DNA from: Peredibacter starrii
GTDB taxonomy: Bacteria > Bdellovibrionota > Bacteriovoracia > Bacteriovoracales > Bacteriovoracaceae
Direction: 5' to 3'
NCBI RefSeq assembly: GCF_034259205.1
Contig: NZ_CP139487.1
Coordinates: 806,001-870,000, forward strand
Length of the DNA stretch: 64,000 nucleotides
The translations under genes and the position numbers were made by a program. Below the pieces are notes generated by a model. That model saw only the letters and a list, made by a program, of their open reading frames with translations, was not told the DNA's origin and did not search any database. How positions within the stretch are numbered: position 1 is the stretch's first letter; every line of letters begins with the position of its first letter. Shown here piece after piece: positions 30,720-46,819 of the stretch.

Positions 30720-32447
30720 ATGGGTTATTACAAGGCCGATATTCGTGACATTGAATTCAATCTAACAGAGCTACTAAAAGTTCAAGACTGGAAAGACTTT
30801 GGTCTTGAAGAGAATGACGTTAAAGGCATTCTTGCTGAATATAACAAGTACGTTGAAAACGAAGTGTTCCCAACTCGTGAGCCATCAGATCACGTTGGTG
30901 TAAAACACGTTAATGGTAAAGTGATCGTTCCTGAATCACTTCATGGTGTTCAAAAATCTTTTTATGCGAACGGCTGGTTCGCTCTTGGTATGCCGGCCGA
31001 AACAGGTGGTACTCCGGTTCCTGAATCTCTCTACGTTGCCTGTATGTCACTTGCGACAGGTGCTAACTGTGCTTGGACAATGTATCCAGGTCTATCACGT
31101 GCGGCCCTGAACGTTATTAACCTTAAAGGTAATGACTTCATGAAGACCAACATCATTCCAAAAATGATGGAAGGGACATGGGGCGGAACAATGTGCTTAA
31201 CTGAGCCAGGAGCTGGTTCGGACGTTGGTGCTCTTCGTTCAACAGCGAAGCCTCTTGGTAACGGCAAATATTCGATCAAAGGAACAAAGATTTTCATCTC
31301 TTCGGGTGAGTCAGATCTTTATGAAAATAACATCCATCTAGTACTTGCTCGTACACCAAACGGTGGCGAAGGTTCAAAGGGGATTTCTCTTTTCGTAGTT
31401 CCTCGTTTCAAAATCAATGACGACGGTTCCATGGGTGGAACTAACCACGTTATTTGTTCAAAAATTGAACACAAAATGGGGATCCATGCTTCGGCAACTT
31501 GTGAAATGCAATTCGGTACAGACGGTGAGACAGAAGGCTGGCTAATCGGTGATGAATTCGACGGTATGGCGACTATGTTCATTATGATGAACGAAGCTCG
31601 TCTTTATTGTGGTATTCAAGGTGAATCACAAGCTAATGCGGCTTATATGATGGCCGAAAAATACACTAAAGAGCGTGTTCAATTCGGTAAGGAAATTATC
31701 AATCACCCTGATGTTCGCCGTAATCTTCTTACAATGAGAGCTCAGGCCCGCGGAATGCGCGCGCTTTGTCTTTATACTGCAAACCTATTTAACAAAGCTC
31801 ACAAAGATCCTAAAGCTGAGGCCATCATCGGTCTTCTTACTCCAATCTGTAAGGCCTACTGTTCAGAGACTGGTTTCCAGGTTTCTTCAAATGCTCTTCA
31901 GGCCCACGGTGGTTACGGCTACTGTACTGAGTACGGAGTAGAGCAGTACGTTCGTGATACTCAAATTGCGATGATCTATGAAGGTACAAATGGTATCCAG
32001 GCAATCGACTTCGTCATGAGAAAAATCCTAAAAGATGGCGGTAAAACTCTGACTGCACTGACAGCTGAAATCGTTGCAGCAGTTCAGTCTCTTGATGATG
32101 CTAAATTCAAAAAAGAGAAAGACATCTTCAACAAGGTTCTTCTAAGTGCTCAGGGTGTTATGCAGCACATTTCGACTTACGCGAAGAATAATCAGTTCAA
32201 CATGATCCTTCAAAACTGTACTGATTTTCTCAACTTTGCGTCTCAAATGGTTATCGCATGGCAACTTCTTGAGTCAGCTGTCCTAGCTGATAAAAAACTT
32301 GCATCAGCTTCGGCCGACGATAAGAAATATTATGAGTCGAAAGTGACTGATTTCAGAGTGTATTGTGCTCATTATCTGATCCATAATCTCTCAACTGCCA
32401 AAACCATTACTGACTTCACTGAAGATATGACGACGCTGGAGATTTGA
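30720..32447 (+). CDS. acyl-CoA dehydrogenase
   Basis: This flavoprotein catalyses the first step of fatty acid beta-oxidation or a related acyl-CoA oxidation. Visible features: TEPGAGSDVGALRSTA (FAD/substrate loop), IKGTKIFISSGE, the helical middle with RVQFGKEIINHP and the end QAHGGYGYCTEYGVEQYVRD and IYEGTNGIQ, with the catalytic Glu at about 421. It is 575 residues long, with about 140 residues beyond the core as in the long FadE-like or DUF1974-containing forms. Ribosome site GAGG 7 nt before ATG. Confidence 0.95.
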   Translation: MGYYKADIRDIEFNLTELLKVQDWKDFGLEENDVKGILAEYNKYVENEVFPTREPSDHVGVKHVNGKVIVPESLHGVQKSFYANGWFALGMPAETGGTPVPESLYVACMSLATGANCAWTMYPGLSRAALNVINLKGNDFMKTNIIPKMMEGTWGGTMCLTEPGAGSDVGALRSTAKPLGNGKYSIKGTKIFISSGESDLYENNIHLVLARTPNGGEGSKGISLFVVPRFKINDDGSMGGTNHVICSKIEHKMGIHASATCEMQFGTDGETEGWLIGDEFDGMATMFIMMNEARLYCGIQGESQANAAYMMAEKYTKERVQFGKEIINHPDVRRNLLTMRAQARGMRALCLYTANLFNKAHKDPKAEAIIGLLTPICKAYCSETGFQVSSNALQAHGGYGYCTEYGVEQYVRDTQIAMIYEGTNGIQAIDFVMRKILKDGGKTLTALTAEIVAAVQSLDDAKFKKEKDIFNKVLLSAQGVMQHISTYAKNNQFNMILQNCTDFLNFASQMVIAWQLLESAVLADKKLASASADDKKYYESKVTDFRVYCAHYLIHNLSTAKTITDFTEDMTTLEI

Positions 32448-32495: not shown

Positions 32496-33320
32496 GTGTT
32501 AAAAGATAAAGTCTTTGAGTTGTCCCAGAAGTTCACTGGGACAACTCATGGCAGTTCCGATTACGACAAGGATCATATCTTTGTCAGAGGAAGCAGTGAT
32601 CGGGAATATGTCCCTTTCAGCTACCTTCAAAAAGAAGTGCCTGAAATTGATTCCATTAATAAACTCAAGGCCGAAGGTTTCGTTTTCAGCTCTTACGATT
32701 TCCTAGAAATAGGAGAGTTTGATCAATGGTACCTTGGTCAGTTCAACAAGCGTCTTTCAAGTAAGACGATGAAGAACCTTGGGATTCTCCATCTTCCGGA
32801 TCAAAAAGCGATTTTTGACACAGTGGAAGTAGTTCACCAAACCTTCCAGATTTTAAAAGATCACAAAGTTTTGATGAATGGCAAAAACTTACCGATTCAG
32901 TTAGGTGAGTGGTACGCGAAAATCATTTTCGGTCTTCATCAAATTAAAAGTTCCTCTCAACGTGGTTTCGATTTCAAGACGGAAAACGGCAGCACGGTTG
33001 AAGTAAAAGTTCATTGGCATGATTCAACCTCTCCGAAAGGGGTAAAAATCAAAAAATCTTTAGCTGAACTATCTGATTTTTGCATTATTATGTATGTAGC
33101 CAAGAACTTTACAATTAGGGACATTCTCTTCTTGGATTCTGAATTTATTCTTCGCAAGTTCGATACGAAAGGTCACACGATCTTTCTAAAAGATCAGGAC
33201 GTCGCGGGGTATTTTTTCAGCAAATCCGACAAGCATTTTGACAAAGTTGTAAATAAAACGGCGTTGTTGAAATTTGCGAGCCCAACTTTAGCGATGAAAT
33301 TAGAAGATCGTTTGAAGTAG
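32496..33320 (+). CDS. protein with PD-(D/E)XK nuclease-like core
   Basis: I do not recognise the family of this 274-residue protein, but residues about 132-173 fit a restriction-endonuclease-like core. A helix with E138 (LPIQLGEWYAKIIFGL) is followed by a strand with D159 (RGFDFKT) and then E169-V-K171 (STVEVKVHWHD), giving the E...D...ExK order. The N-terminal 120 residues are unlike any nuclease that I know. It starts at GTG 32496 with AAAAGG 7 nt upstream. Two tandem response regulators follow 26 nt downstream, which suggests control by, or co-expression with, them. DNA cleavage is inferred, not shown. Confidence 0.6.
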   Translation: MLKDKVFELSQKFTGTTHGSSDYDKDHIFVRGSSDREYVPFSYLQKEVPEIDSINKLKAEGFVFSSYDFLEIGEFDQWYLGQFNKRLSSKTMKNLGILHLPDQKAIFDTVEVVHQTFQILKDHKVLMNGKNLPIQLGEWYAKIIFGLHQIKSSSQRGFDFKTENGSTVEVKVHWHDSTSPKGVKIKKSLAELSDFCIIMYVAKNFTIRDILFLDSEFILRKFDTKGHTIFLKDQDVAGYFFSKSDKHFDKVVNKTALLKFASPTLAMKLEDRLK

Positions 33321-33346
33321 GCCGCTCATAACTTGTTGGAGATGAT

Positions 33347-34018
33347 TTGAAAGCCGGAATCGCGTACATTGATGATAATAAACTCAATTTAGACTGTATT
33401 AAGACAATCCTCGATCAAGATTTTGATGTAGAGATTTTCCAAAAGCCGGAAGCGTTCTTAACTAAATTCGAATCAACTTCGTATACATCGATTCTTGTCG
33501 ACATTCATATGCCAACTCTTAATGGCTTCTCGCTATATGAAAAGATCATCGAGCACCCGCACTACAATGGTTGTCCGATTCTTTTTATTTCTTCTGATGA
33601 TTCTGACAGTGCTCGTATCAAATCTTTCGTCATGGGTGCGGTTGATTTTTTAAATCGCGCTATCAATCCGGATGAAATGATTGCAAGAATTAAATCGAAG
33701 ATTGCGTTCTTCCAAAAGCACCGTAGCATCATCGAGTTCACAAATTTAAGAGTGAACTTAACTTTGCTAAAGGCATATTTGGATTCGAAAGAGCTTCCTC
33801 TAACGTTCATCGAGTTCAAAATTCTCTGTCTGGTTTTAAGAAATTATCCGGACGTTGTGCCTAAGCCGCAACTTATTCAGCAGGTTTGGAGAACAGATCA
33901 CGTTCTTGACGCCACCATTTACACTCACGTTTCTAACTTAAATAGCAAGCTAGGTCCATGGGACTATGAAATTAATGGTCTTAAAACCAAGGGCGTGCAA
34001 TTAATGAAAAAAGCGTAA
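33347..34018 (+). CDS. atypical OmpR-type response regulator (copy 1)
   Basis: The 223-residue protein starts at TTG 33347 (GGAG 5 nt upstream). The receiver keeps the acidic pair (YIDDN, D9-D10), the acceptor D52 (LVDIHMP) and a switch Ser (ILFISSDD), but the conserved Lys is Arg104 (DFLNRAINP) and the following Pro is Ala. The C-terminal winged helix (about 130-220, LTFIEFKILCLVLRNYP to ATIYTHVSNLNSKLG) is OmpR-like and shorter than usual at its end. It is a paralogue of the next gene, from which it is separated by 4 nt. Confidence 0.8.
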   Translation: MKAGIAYIDDNKLNLDCIKTILDQDFDVEIFQKPEAFLTKFESTSYTSILVDIHMPTLNGFSLYEKIIEHPHYNGCPILFISSDDSDSARIKSFVMGAVDFLNRAINPDEMIARIKSKIAFFQKHRSIIEFTNLRVNLTLLKAYLDSKELPLTFIEFKILCLVLRNYPDVVPKPQLIQQVWRTDHVLDATIYTHVSNLNSKLGPWDYEINGLKTKGVQLMKKA

Positions 34019-34022
34019 ATCT

Positions 34023-34700
34023 ATGAAGTGGACCCTTATCTATTTTGATGATCAAGTTCAGAATATCGAAGCTTATAAGGAGTTTCTCTCAGATAAATTC
34101 AATGTGATTGGAAGTAATGATCCAAGATCCTTGACGACGCTTCTTCAAGACAACAATCCACACGTCATTCTTCTTGATGTTCATATGCCATACATTGATG
34201 GCCATGAACTTCATAAGAACATTGTTGATCACCCTCTCTATAATGGCTGCCCGATTATTTTCATCTCTGGCGATCAGTCGGATGAAAATAAACTACGCTC
34301 TTATGAGAAAGGAGGCATTGATTTCTTGCCTCGTGACCTGTCACCTGAAGAGATCGTGGCCAGACTTACCAATAAGGTGAAGTTCTTCCTTCAAATGTCG
34401 ACTAAGCTTGAGCTTGGAAATTTATCGATGGATGTGAAGACAATGAAGGCCACAGTTAACGGTCAGAATGCTGACCTTACTCTGTTGGAGCTTCGTTTAT
34501 TAAGTAATATTCTACGCTCTTATCCAGCGCCTCTGACTCGTAGTGATTTGATCCTGAGAGTGTGGGGGAACGATACTGTTAAACCCGGCACAATCAATAC
34601 CCATTTAACAAATCTCAAACCGAAAATTGAGGCCTGGGATCACCAGATCAAAGTTCGCGAAGAGAACATCCTTGTTCAAAAAGCTCAAAAGAAAATTTAG
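34023..34700 (+). CDS. atypical OmpR-type response regulator (copy 2)
   Basis: The 225-residue paralogue of the preceding gene product keeps D9-D10 (IYFDDQ), acceptor D52 (LLDVHMP) and Ser in FISGD, but again has Arg in place of the conserved Lys (IDFLPRDLSP, Arg104; the Pro becomes Asp). Its winged helix reads LTLLELRLLSNILRSYP to GTINTHLTNLKPKIE. Both copies share HP-(H/L)-YNGCPI-(L/I)-FIS. No kinase is adjacent. The 3' end overlaps the convergent methyltransferase gene by 4 nt. Confidence 0.8.
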   Translation: MKWTLIYFDDQVQNIEAYKEFLSDKFNVIGSNDPRSLTTLLQDNNPHVILLDVHMPYIDGHELHKNIVDHPLYNGCPIIFISGDQSDENKLRSYEKGGIDFLPRDLSPEEIVARLTNKVKFFLQMSTKLELGNLSMDVKTMKATVNGQNADLTLLELRLLSNILRSYPAPLTRSDLILRVWGNDTVKPGTINTHLTNLKPKIEAWDHQIKVREENILVQKAQKKI

Positions 34701-35935
34701 TAAAGAGAGTACTCAGCAAGTCTACACTCGATGTCACCGTTAAAGAGAATGTGACGTTTCGAGGTCTTCAGACCTACAACTTTCAACATCTCTAAATTAC
34801 CAGTGAATAGAGCTGCCCTGTGACCCTTAAAGGCGTGTTTCCAATGATCACCAAGACCTTTGTAGAGGGCCTTAAGTTTCTCTTCTTCATTGTGCTCTAA
34901 ACGCTCACCATATGGTGGGTTACAAATGAAAACTGATTTTGTCGTTGGTGGATACAATTCAAGTGCATCTTTTTTAGTAAGATCGATGATGCCTTCAAGC
35001 TTGGCTTTTTTAACGTTTTCACGAGCTGAAATAAGGGCCATCTCAGAAAGATCATTTCCAACGATGAAGCCTTTCTTGGTACGAAGGAACTCCAGACCTT
35101 TTTCAGTTGCGTCAGTCACTTCAGCTAAAAGTTTTTGGAAGTTATCCCAAAGAAACTTGTCCTGTGTGAGCCAAGGGTAGTTCAGGAAGGTCCACATTTT
35201 GAATTGGGGATTTTTTAAATAACGTTCAACTTTTAAGAAGCTTGGTGGAATGTTCGCTGCCATCAGAGCTGCTTCAATGGTGAAAGTACCAGAGCCACAC
35301 ATGGCATCGATAAGACCTTCTTCAGCTGGATTCCAATTGATCATTTTCAGAATACCCGCTGCCACGTTTTCTTTAACTGGAGCTTCGGTCTTCGCCATAC
35401 GGTATCCACGTTGGTTAAGTGGATCACCACATAGGTCGTACATAAGAGTTACCTGATAAGGTTTCTCTTCACCTCGATCAATGCGGGCAAGGAAAGCAAT
35501 ATCTGGAAATTCACGGCCAACACTTGGACGGTTACCATCGTGATGACGGAACCAATCAACGATCGCGTCTTTAAGTTTTAAGTTTGTGAACTGAGAGTTT
35601 CTGAATTCTTCACGCTCGCCTGGAAGGTCACCGTAAATTGTTGTCAGACGGAAAGTCTGATTCACATCCATTAAGCTCTTCCACTTGATATTTGTCGCTT
35701 CAAGATAATAATCTTTTTCGTTTAGCACATCGAAAGTGAAGAGGTATTTGAACACTCGGCTTGCAATGCGTGAGTAAAGAATCACTTTTAGGGCAACTTC
35801 ATGAAAGGCCTCAAATTGAACACCGCCCCTTACAGTTTTGGTTGTTTTGGCACCTAACGCCAAAATTTCCTGTGCGAGAAGCTCTTCCAAGCCCATTGAA
35901 CAAGAAGCAAAGTATTCGAAGCGATATTTTTTCAT
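34697..35935 (-). CDS. 23S rRNA (guanine-N2)-methyltransferase, RlmL/YpsC type
   Basis: The 412-residue enzyme belongs to the THUMP-containing class I methyltransferases of COG0116, which methylate guanine in 23S rRNA. N-terminal region about 1-170 holds the ferredoxin-like and THUMP domains (KYRFEYFASCSMGLEELLAQ). The methyltransferase domain has the SAM loop MCGSGTFTIEAALMA (about 195-210) and motif IV FICNPPYGERL, the N-P-P-Y of N-methylases. It lacks the second methyltransferase (RlmK) of E. coli RlmKL, as in YpsC. AAGG 7 nt before ATG. Confidence 0.9.
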   Translation of the reverse strand: MKKYRFEYFASCSMGLEELLAQEILALGAKTTKTVRGGVQFEAFHEVALKVILYSRIASRVFKYLFTFDVLNEKDYYLEATNIKWKSLMDVNQTFRLTTIYGDLPGEREEFRNSQFTNLKLKDAIVDWFRHHDGNRPSVGREFPDIAFLARIDRGEEKPYQVTLMYDLCGDPLNQRGYRMAKTEAPVKENVAAGILKMINWNPAEEGLIDAMCGSGTFTIEAALMAANIPPSFLKVERYLKNPQFKMWTFLNYPWLTQDKFLWDNFQKLLAEVTDATEKGLEFLRTKKGFIVGNDLSEMALISARENVKKAKLEGIIDLTKKDALELYPPTTKSVFICNPPYGERLEHNEEEKLKALYKGLGDHWKHAFKGHRAALFTGNLEMLKVVGLKTSKRHILFNGDIECRLAEYSLY

Positions 35936-44758: not shown

Positions 44759-46819
44759 ATGGTAGATAAATTTGAACTTTATCACGCCGCTCAAAGCTGG
44801 TTTGCGAAGAACACCGAGATCTACCGGTCTAGTCGTTATCGCGCGCTTGAAATCATCTGCCAAAAAATTAATGAAGTAATGAACGTTCAACGCATCGGCA
44901 TATGGTTTTATACCATCGATAAAGAAGCGATGTACGAAGAGATGACTTTTGTGGCGAACGGGGTTCCTACTCAAGGCTCGATTTTAAAGCGAGCAGAGTT
45001 ACCAATCTACTTCGAACACCTTCGCGCAGAAAGAGTACTTGTCAGTAACGATACTTTTAAAGATGAGGCCACTTCCGAGATGGTCGACTCCTATATGAAA
45101 CCGTTAAATGTAAGGGCACTTCTGGACGCTCCAATCTTTTCTGATGGAGAGATGATTGGAATCCTTTGCTGTGAATACATTGGTGGTCCGAGAGAGTGGG
45201 ACATTCAAGATAAAAACTTTGCGGCAAGTAGCTCGGATTTCATCGGCCGTTTAATAGAATCTGAAAAACGTCATACTTACGAAAAAGAACTTCGTCACCG
45301 TATTAACTATCTTGAGAACGATCTTAAAAGAAAGCTCGACGATCTCAACGAAGCGAAGCTTAGTCTGGATCTTGCCCTTGAGGGCGCTCAAGTTGGTAAG
45401 TGGGATTGGGACTTATCTTCTAGCAAACTTCTTTTAAATAAAACCTGGTACACAAAACTGGGCTACAACTACAACGAACTTCCTCAGACGATTGAAACAT
45501 TTAAAAAGTGTCTGCATCCGGATGATGTTTCAAGAGTATTTGAAGAACTGGATAGACATTTAAAAGGTGAGACTCTTTTCTACGAATGTCGTTTCCGAAT
45601 GCTGACAAAGTCAGGGGACATTCAGTGGTGTCTTGACCGTGGTTGTATTATTCACAGGACCAGCGATGGTAAACCTCTTCGCGTGATTGGCGTAAACGTT
45701 AATGTTACTCCAGTTGTGAAGTGGGAACAAAGTGTAATCATTTCTGAGCAACAGTTGAAAGCGATGATTCAATCACTTCCAACTCCAGTTGCGATGTTCG
45801 ATAAAGATCTTAAATACCTTGCCTTCAGTTCTCGTTGGGCAGAGGAGTGGCAGAATTTTGGTCGCGCTCGCGAAGGTCAGAATGTTCGTGCTGACTTCCG
45901 TCCAGACTGGATTAAAGCGATGGAAAAGGCCCTCCAGGGCGAAATCCTGAGTCGTGATGAGGATCTGGTGGAGTTCGCTCCAGGAAACGAATTATGGCTT
46001 CGTTGGGCGATTCAGCCGTGGAAAAACGCCAACCAGGAAATTGGTGGTGTGATTGTGATGGCAGAGAATATTTCTAGTCGTAAAGAAGCTGAGATGAAAC
46101 TTACTCAGGCCTCTAAACTTTCAGCTCTGGGAGAGATGGCCGGTGGTATTGCTCACGAGATCAATAACCCTTTGAGTATTATTAAAGGTTATATCGACCT
46201 TCTTCGCCGTCATTCATCTCGTCAGTCTTTAAGTTCAGAACTTCTTCTTCAGTACATTGAAAAGATGGATCTGACAGTGGGACGAATTTCGCGAATTGTG
46301 AATGGTATGAGACGCTTCTCTCGTGAATCTTCAATGGACGAGAAAGTGAATTATTCTCTGAATAAGATCGTGGAAGAGACTCTTGATATTTGTCAGGAGC
46401 GAATCAATAACAATGGCACCTCGGTTGATGTGCAGTACTTAAAGCATGATTCGACGGTCAATTGTCGTCCGGTTGAGATTTCACAAGTATTGCTGAATCT
46501 TATTAATAACTCTTACCAAGCTACGTCTTCGTATCCGCATCCATGGATTAAGATCAAGATGGAAGAGCTTCCAACTATGTACCGTATTCAGATCACTGAC
46601 TGCGGAGAAAAAATTTCTTCGACCATTCGTCAGAAATTGTTCCAACCATTTTTCACGACCAAAGATATCGGCGTGGGGACTGGTCTGGGTCTCAGTATTT
46701 CACGAGGGATCATCGAAGAGCATAAAGGGAAGTTGTACTATCAGGACGAAGCACCTAATACGACGTTCGTTATTGAGCTACCGAAGCTTGACACGGTAAG
46801 TACTCAAATTTCGCATTAA
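44759..46819 (+). CDS. cytosolic GAF-PAS-PAS sensor histidine kinase
   Basis: The 686-residue kinase has no membrane helix. Order: GAF-like domain (about 15-170, INEVMNVQRIGIWFYTIDKE), a coiled coil (180-210), a PAS domain (about 208-325 with GKWDWDLSS and GVNVNVTPVVKWE, PAC), a second PAS (about 335-450) and the kinase core: H-box MAGGIAHEINNPLSII (His about 466), N-box VLLNLINNSYQAT, G1 ITDCGEKIS (G1 is atypical) and G2 GVGTGLGLSISRGI. The ATP-binding D-x-G-x-G is D-C-G-E, slightly degenerate. The start has AGGAAGG 9-10 nt upstream. No adjacent regulator, so it is an orphan. Confidence 0.93.
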   Translation: MVDKFELYHAAQSWFAKNTEIYRSSRYRALEIICQKINEVMNVQRIGIWFYTIDKEAMYEEMTFVANGVPTQGSILKRAELPIYFEHLRAERVLVSNDTFKDEATSEMVDSYMKPLNVRALLDAPIFSDGEMIGILCCEYIGGPREWDIQDKNFAASSSDFIGRLIESEKRHTYEKELRHRINYLENDLKRKLDDLNEAKLSLDLALEGAQVGKWDWDLSSSKLLLNKTWYTKLGYNYNELPQTIETFKKCLHPDDVSRVFEELDRHLKGETLFYECRFRMLTKSGDIQWCLDRGCIIHRTSDGKPLRVIGVNVNVTPVVKWEQSVIISEQQLKAMIQSLPTPVAMFDKDLKYLAFSSRWAEEWQNFGRAREGQNVRADFRPDWIKAMEKALQGEILSRDEDLVEFAPGNELWLRWAIQPWKNANQEIGGVIVMAENISSRKEAEMKLTQASKLSALGEMAGGIAHEINNPLSIIKGYIDLLRRHSSRQSLSSELLLQYIEKMDLTVGRISRIVNGMRRFSRESSMDEKVNYSLNKIVEETLDICQERINNNGTSVDVQYLKHDSTVNCRPVEISQVLLNLINNSYQATSSYPHPWIKIKMEELPTMYRIQITDCGEKISSTIRQKLFQPFFTTKDIGVGTGLGLSISRGIIEEHKGKLYYQDEAPNTTFVIELPKLDTVSTQISH

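Follow-up and report, generated by a model that had tools for sequence, protein, structure and literature searches.

The window, that is, the whole 64,000-nucleotide stretch of Peredibacter starrii DNA that was analysed, carries on its forward strand three closely spaced genes, one encoding a 274-aa protein with a GTG start (32496..33320) and two encoding the OmpR-type response regulators RR1 (223 aa, TTG start, 33347-34018) and RR2 (225 aa, ATG start, 34023-34700). These open reading frames and the gaps of 26 and 4 nt between them are as originally predicted. Upstream, 48 nt before the first gene and on the same strand, lies the gene of a 575-aa acyl-CoA dehydrogenase (30720..32447; Pfam Acyl-CoA_dh_1/M/C), and downstream there is a convergent gene for an RlmL-like 23S rRNA methyltransferase (34697..35935, reverse strand). 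AlphaFold modelling, structural matches and class-wide presence mark the 274-aa protein as a predicted class-specific core nuclease of the PD-(D/E)XK type.

The AlphaFold model, built with 39 homologues from the class, had a mean pLDDT of 92.5. For the nuclease domain (aa 102-260, 32799..33275), the best PDB matches found with VIA-align were NhoI (Z 12.3, aligned over aa 102-260) and Eco15I (Z 11.7), followed by PvuII (Z 9.2); NhoI and Eco15I were also the closest by Foldseek (best E 5e-6), and the Hjc and RecU resolvases were also matched, with lower Z values. The nuclease fold, which had been proposed from motif order only, is thus supported by structure prediction. The motif itself (E138, D159 and E169-x-K171) was confirmed in the 274-aa frame and falls within a predicted core made of helix 132-145 and strands 158-161 and 167-174, the active-site stretch covering 32907..33008 (E138, 32907-32909; D159, 32970-32972; E169, 33000-33002; K171, 33006-33008). 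When 60 class homologues were aligned, E138, D159 and E169 were each invariant (60/60) and K171 was kept in 53/60, the rest having Q, N, M, R, V or I. The N-terminal domain (aa 1-101, 32496..32798) is also conserved and, modelled alone, reached a pLDDT of 90.3; PDB searches gave it no hit with E<1 and none with Z>=2, from which novelty of the fold does not follow. In one homologue (L056:4029-4961), some 30 residues rich in Ser, Asn and Thr are inserted into this domain. Among the profiles, Pfam DUF6998 matched 26 of 39 family members (best E 7e-5) and the window's nuclease at E 0.0014, below its cut-off, PADLOC mREase_II gave a weak match (E 9.6e-5, aa 110-219), and the Vsr profile (PF03852) had no match in Pfam scans of the window's nuclease or its 39 homologues. 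On this model, the 274-aa protein consists of a class-specific N-terminal domain followed by a BisI/PvuII-type PD-(D/E)XK domain, and we infer that it is cytoplasmic (no signal peptide was seen by eye) and active.

The nuclease gene, essentially single copy, was present in 126 of 129 genomes of the class Bacteriovoracia, whose members are largely predatory bacteria, and in all 73 of the near-complete ones; searches in the other classes of the phylum gave chance-level matches only, none of them credible. In most genera with a contig long enough to show it, the acyl-CoA dehydrogenase gene directly precedes the nuclease gene in the same orientation, as a conserved neighbour, and in the genomes without the regulator pair the RlmL-like methyltransferase gene comes directly after it. 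Within the window's genus it is the most conserved of five genes compared, with a mean pairwise identity of 0.88, the values being 0.81 for the dehydrogenase, 0.73 for the rRNA methyltransferase, and 0.55 and 0.51 for the regulators, which evolve far faster. The nuclease is a predicted, vertically inherited core endonuclease of Bacteriovoracia, and represents a universal class-specific family that carries no informative annotation. Since it occurs in essentially all known members of the class, it resembles a housekeeping gene more than a part of a phage-defence module. Neither the patchy distribution nor the defence neighbourhood of anti-phage genes was found for this universal single-copy gene beside an acyl-CoA dehydrogenase, and membership in a known defence system was rejected, PADLOC giving only the weak match to methyl-directed restriction enzymes.

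The regulator pair

Both regulators matched Response_reg (4e-18 for RR1 and 2e-16 for RR2) and Trans_reg_C (1e-9 and 2e-6, respectively). They resemble OmpR/PhoB regulators in having a receiver plus a winged helix, with the acidic pocket and the acceptor Asp, but differ from them in that every member has Arg104 for Lys (codons 33656-33658 in RR1 and 34332-34334 in RR2). Residues D9, D10, D52, S82 and R104 were invariant in 34/34 orthologues (18 of RR1 and 16 of RR2). In the 62 receivers of the genome that were examined (RR1, RR2 and 60 others), the Lys position is occupied by Lys in 59, by Tyr in one and by Arg only in RR1 and RR2, and the Pro at the next position, kept in 58/62, is absent from both. 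Since R104 is found in all orthologues and is the only Arg among these receivers, the Lys-to-Arg change is not due to chance. The original prediction had described Arg104 without the next Pro, together with retention of D9-D10 and D52, and this holds for both regulators; it had also seen no kinase nearby, and the cluster indeed has none, with the closest match to a histidine kinase some 11 kb downstream (window ~46115-46789).

RR1 and RR2 are genus-restricted. The pair adjoins the nuclease gene only in the window's genus, at 18 of the 24 first-examined loci with a readable neighbourhood, and a fragment from one more genome also bears it; in the other genera examined, it was not found beside the nuclease gene. 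A three-gene tree requires five changes to explain this pattern, which we read as one gain and about four losses in the genus. At one locus (L017, from the same genome as L112), RR2 has been lost and RR1 is the only gene that separates that of the nuclease from that of the rRNA methyltransferase. An AU test of RR1 plus RR2 as a single clade among Lys-to-Arg receivers gave p 0.42. Arg-carrying relatives of the two regulators exist elsewhere in the class and, at five loci among those examined, adjoin a membrane histidine kinase (L079:2812-4661, L080:2698-4664, L081:4065-5866, L082:4070-6244 and L084:4077-5899) whose H, N and G boxes are intact. Another relative (L096:3997-4671) has a degenerate receiver with Ser-Asn in the Lys-Pro region, and the canonical DD motif is absent. 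The Arg relatives beside intact kinases therefore define an Arg-type two-component family that includes RR1 and RR2 as orphan members. These relatives, together with the invariance of the acceptor Asp and the acidic pair, argue against RR1 and RR2 being unphosphorylated. To call them pseudo-receivers without a kinase, as had been done, was therefore too strong: the loss of Lys stands, but Arg relatives adjoin intact kinases in the five loci. RR1 and RR2 are a later, genus-level and dispensable addition, and are probably phosphorylatable outputs of a separate two-component family. In CheY, the K109R change keeps phosphorylation and abolishes signalling, and in CsrR signalling is lost with K102R (PMC3203184); by analogy with these outcomes, RR1 and RR2 would have to switch differently or act constitutively.

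It had further been suggested that the nuclease is regulated by, or works with, the pseudo-receiver pair in an undescribed defence or predation module. The common strand and the short spacing (26 and 4 nt) make co-transcription likely in the window's genus, but the other genera examined had no adjoining pair and, within the genus, the pair was lost about four times while the nuclease persisted. In addition, the order of three genes looked for in other Bacteriovoracales is confined to one genus, and what accompanies the universal single-copy nuclease gene is the acyl-CoA dehydrogenase gene. On these grounds of synteny the module was rejected, and we regard it as the least probable of the explanations considered. 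Of the original interpretation as a whole, the nuclease fold and the conserved Lys-to-Arg change are supported, and the functional module is not.

The GGCT-to-GGCC bias and the class-wide C5 methyltransferase

Base composition was analysed in 464 kb of class DNA (21 stretches, the window plus L283-L302) and in 366 kb from other classes of the phylum (20 stretches, L263-L282). In the class, GGCC was the only strong departure among the 16 palindromic tetramers, with an observed/expected ratio of 1.72 (z 22.5) and an excess in 21/21 stretches; outside the class the ratio was 0.94, and the 20 stretches spanned 0.62-1.10. GGCT/AGCC displayed a ratio of 0.55 (z -23.7) in the class and of 0.99 outside. 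The corresponding GGCT-to-GGCC odds ratio ranged from 1.8 to 19 over the class stretches and from 0.5 to 1.2 in the other classes. Expressed as GGC[C/T] the odds ratio was 4.59 in the class (0.93 outside), vs 4.56 obtained with the same measure for the Vsr/Dcm control of E. coli K-12, C[C/T]WGG. This context was the single strong outlier among 64, and flanking bases were without influence. After GGC, C was favoured over T whatever the codon phase or the strand, and in non-coding DNA as well (odds ratios 1.65-12.8 in the class; 0.69-1.07 in other classes), and codon usage was accordingly rejected as the cause. Selection for GGCC as a whole motif was also rejected, because the other one-step neighbours of GGCC were near 1 (0.93-1.05) and only GGCT/AGCC was strongly depleted, a pattern that favours a directed T-to-C correction. 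The footprint showed no dependence on K171 or on the regulator pair, and it was no weaker where the nuclease is without K171 (pooled odds ratio 6.95) than where K171 is kept (3.69). The BisI site GCNGC occurred in the distant-class set at 1.13 times its expected frequency and was thus not depleted. Vsr was absent from 72/76 class genomes, DUF559 from 71/76 and MTES_1575 from 70/76. The window's genome is among the only four of 76 with a Vsr-family match (G000:C1:1529708-1529899). A class-wide GGCT-to-GGCC bias calls for an enzyme to explain it, and may point to an undescribed repair system of which the nuclease is possibly a member.

Because the closest folds of the nuclease act on methylcytosine, C5 methyltransferases were searched for. 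A solitary C5-cytosine DNA methyltransferase was present in 73/73 near-complete class genomes, the copy of the window's genome being at L237:3526-4656 (G000:C1:2193125-2194252). Class members were 43-87% identical to this copy and matches outside the class reached at most 36%; the catalytic motifs were invariant in 20 members. No recurring nuclease gene stood beside it in the 20 neighbourhoods examined and no cognate methyltransferase adjoins the nuclease gene, the class methyltransferase being encoded elsewhere. Comparison with PDB relatives disclosed a similarity to M.HaeIII (GGCC) that spans the catalytic part only. The class enzyme may modify GGCC; a paper on a Bacteriovorax methylome was not found.

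A possible Vsr-like repair system and its alternatives

The nuclease, the methyltransferase and the footprint have the same class-specific range and fit together as a Vsr-like system. Our main reading, to which we assign a probability of about one in three, is that the nuclease is a DNA-maintenance enzyme tied to the solitary C5 methyltransferase of the class and working like Vsr. The methyltransferase would modify the outer C of GGCC, deamination of 5-methylcytosine would leave a T:G mismatch, the nuclease would nick the DNA at this mismatch and C would replace T; over-correction would then enrich the whole genome in GGCC and deplete it of GGCT, so that the footprint would be made by the nuclease. 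That the nuclease is the mismatch-repair endonuclease behind the GGCC footprint is put forward tentatively, as a proposal and not as proof. With a similar probability, Bacteriovoracia would own a very-short-patch-like system in which a universal solitary C5 methyltransferase acting on GGCC is joined by the 274-aa protein, a repair nuclease with no sequence kinship to Vsr that would turn T:G back into C:G at GGC(T/C). The footprint strength equal to that of E. coli Vsr/Dcm counts for the Vsr-like reading. Against it count the equally strong footprint where K171 is lost, the fact that NhoI and Eco15I cut methylated duplexes and not mismatches, and the position of the marked base, since M.HaeIII modifies the inner C of GGCC and the footprint marks the outer one. 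A further point against it is that nuclease, methyltransferase and footprint each appear once, with the class, so that their co-occurrence amounts to one evolutionary event; no informative loss was found. If the Vsr-like reading is true, a restriction-enzyme-type fold would guard against 5-methylcytosine deamination after a recruitment separate from that of Vsr, a whole bacterial class would carry a fixed cytosine-methylation system of which we found no description, and the persistence of solitary C5 methyltransferases would in part be accounted for.

Close behind the Vsr-like mechanism, and likewise a tentative possibility, ranks a core function unrelated to cytosine methylation, by which the protein would be a structure-specific or repair/recombination nuclease and another enzyme, for example a T:G glycosylase, would make the footprint. 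A universal, single-copy, slowly evolving and syntenic gene is consistent with such a role, and so are the lower-Z matches to Hjc and RecU and the independence of the footprint from K171. However, the nearest folds belong to restriction enzymes, methylcytosine-dependent or of Type II, and not to resolvases and, since RuvC is present in 73/73 near-complete class genomes, the nuclease is not a RuvC replacement. We consider it improbable that the nuclease and the solitary methyltransferase are a fixed, unlinked restriction-modification pair, in which the former would cut the unmethylated site that the latter protects. The PvuII-like fold and the class-wide distribution shared by the methyltransferase would agree with this, but the two genes were not linked in any of the 20 neighbourhoods examined. 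Restriction as a rule makes a genome avoid the site, whereas GGCC, the sole palindrome to stand out class-wide, is in excess, and restriction systems are seldom fixed throughout a class.

NhoI and Eco15I being the best structural matches, and mREase_II a weak one, the protein could also act as a BisI-like, modification-dependent restriction enzyme and destroy foreign methylated DNA from phage or prey. Yet a C5 methyltransferase is universal in the class itself, and the restriction enzyme would therefore need a different target; most defence genes are patchily distributed and this one is in all near-complete genomes, and its motif III is ExK and not the QxK of that family. We regard this explanation as slightly less probable than a restriction-modification pair. 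More unlikely again is a protein that has kept the fold and lost catalysis to become structural or DNA-binding: K171 is replaced in 7/60 homologues, but E138, D159 and E169 are invariant in 60/60, and several active PD-(D/E)XK enzymes do without the catalytic Lys.

With regard to known systems, the nuclease resembles PvuII in fold (Z up to 9.2) and in the D-10-E-x-K spacing, and is unlike it in having no linked methyltransferase, an extra N-terminal domain and the status of a class-wide core gene. With the BisI family (NhoI, Eco15I) it shares a PvuII-like PD-(D/E)XK core, the fold of the catalytic domain being matched. The order of the active site is the same as in Eco15I, with a spacing of E-21-D-10-E-2-K vs E-20-D-10-Q-2-K, and mutation of Eco15I shows that each of E49, D69, Q79 and K81 is required for activity (PMC11347163). 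In contrast, motif III of the BisI family is QxK (PD-QXK subgroup; PMC11347163) and that of the nuclease is ExK, with E169 in 60/60; identity to the family is 12-19%, and the nuclease has an extra N-terminal domain without a fold match and is encoded by a universal core gene. The BisI family is modification-dependent, with 5mC-dependent cleavage in GCNGC, and the nuclease described here is not known to depend on 5mC. Finally, the proposed class system is like Vsr/Dcm of E. coli in its solitary C5 methyltransferase and its T-to-C footprint of equal strength, but the nuclease falls outside the Vsr family by sequence, the site is GGC[C/T] and not C[C/T]WGG, and mismatch nicking is a prediction. 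A solitary C5 methyltransferase (ScmA) and a Vsr-like protein (VsrA) encoded by unlinked genes have been described in Caulobacter (PMC12907096), and the proposed class system resembles this pair in that its nuclease gene is unlinked to the solitary C5 methyltransferase.
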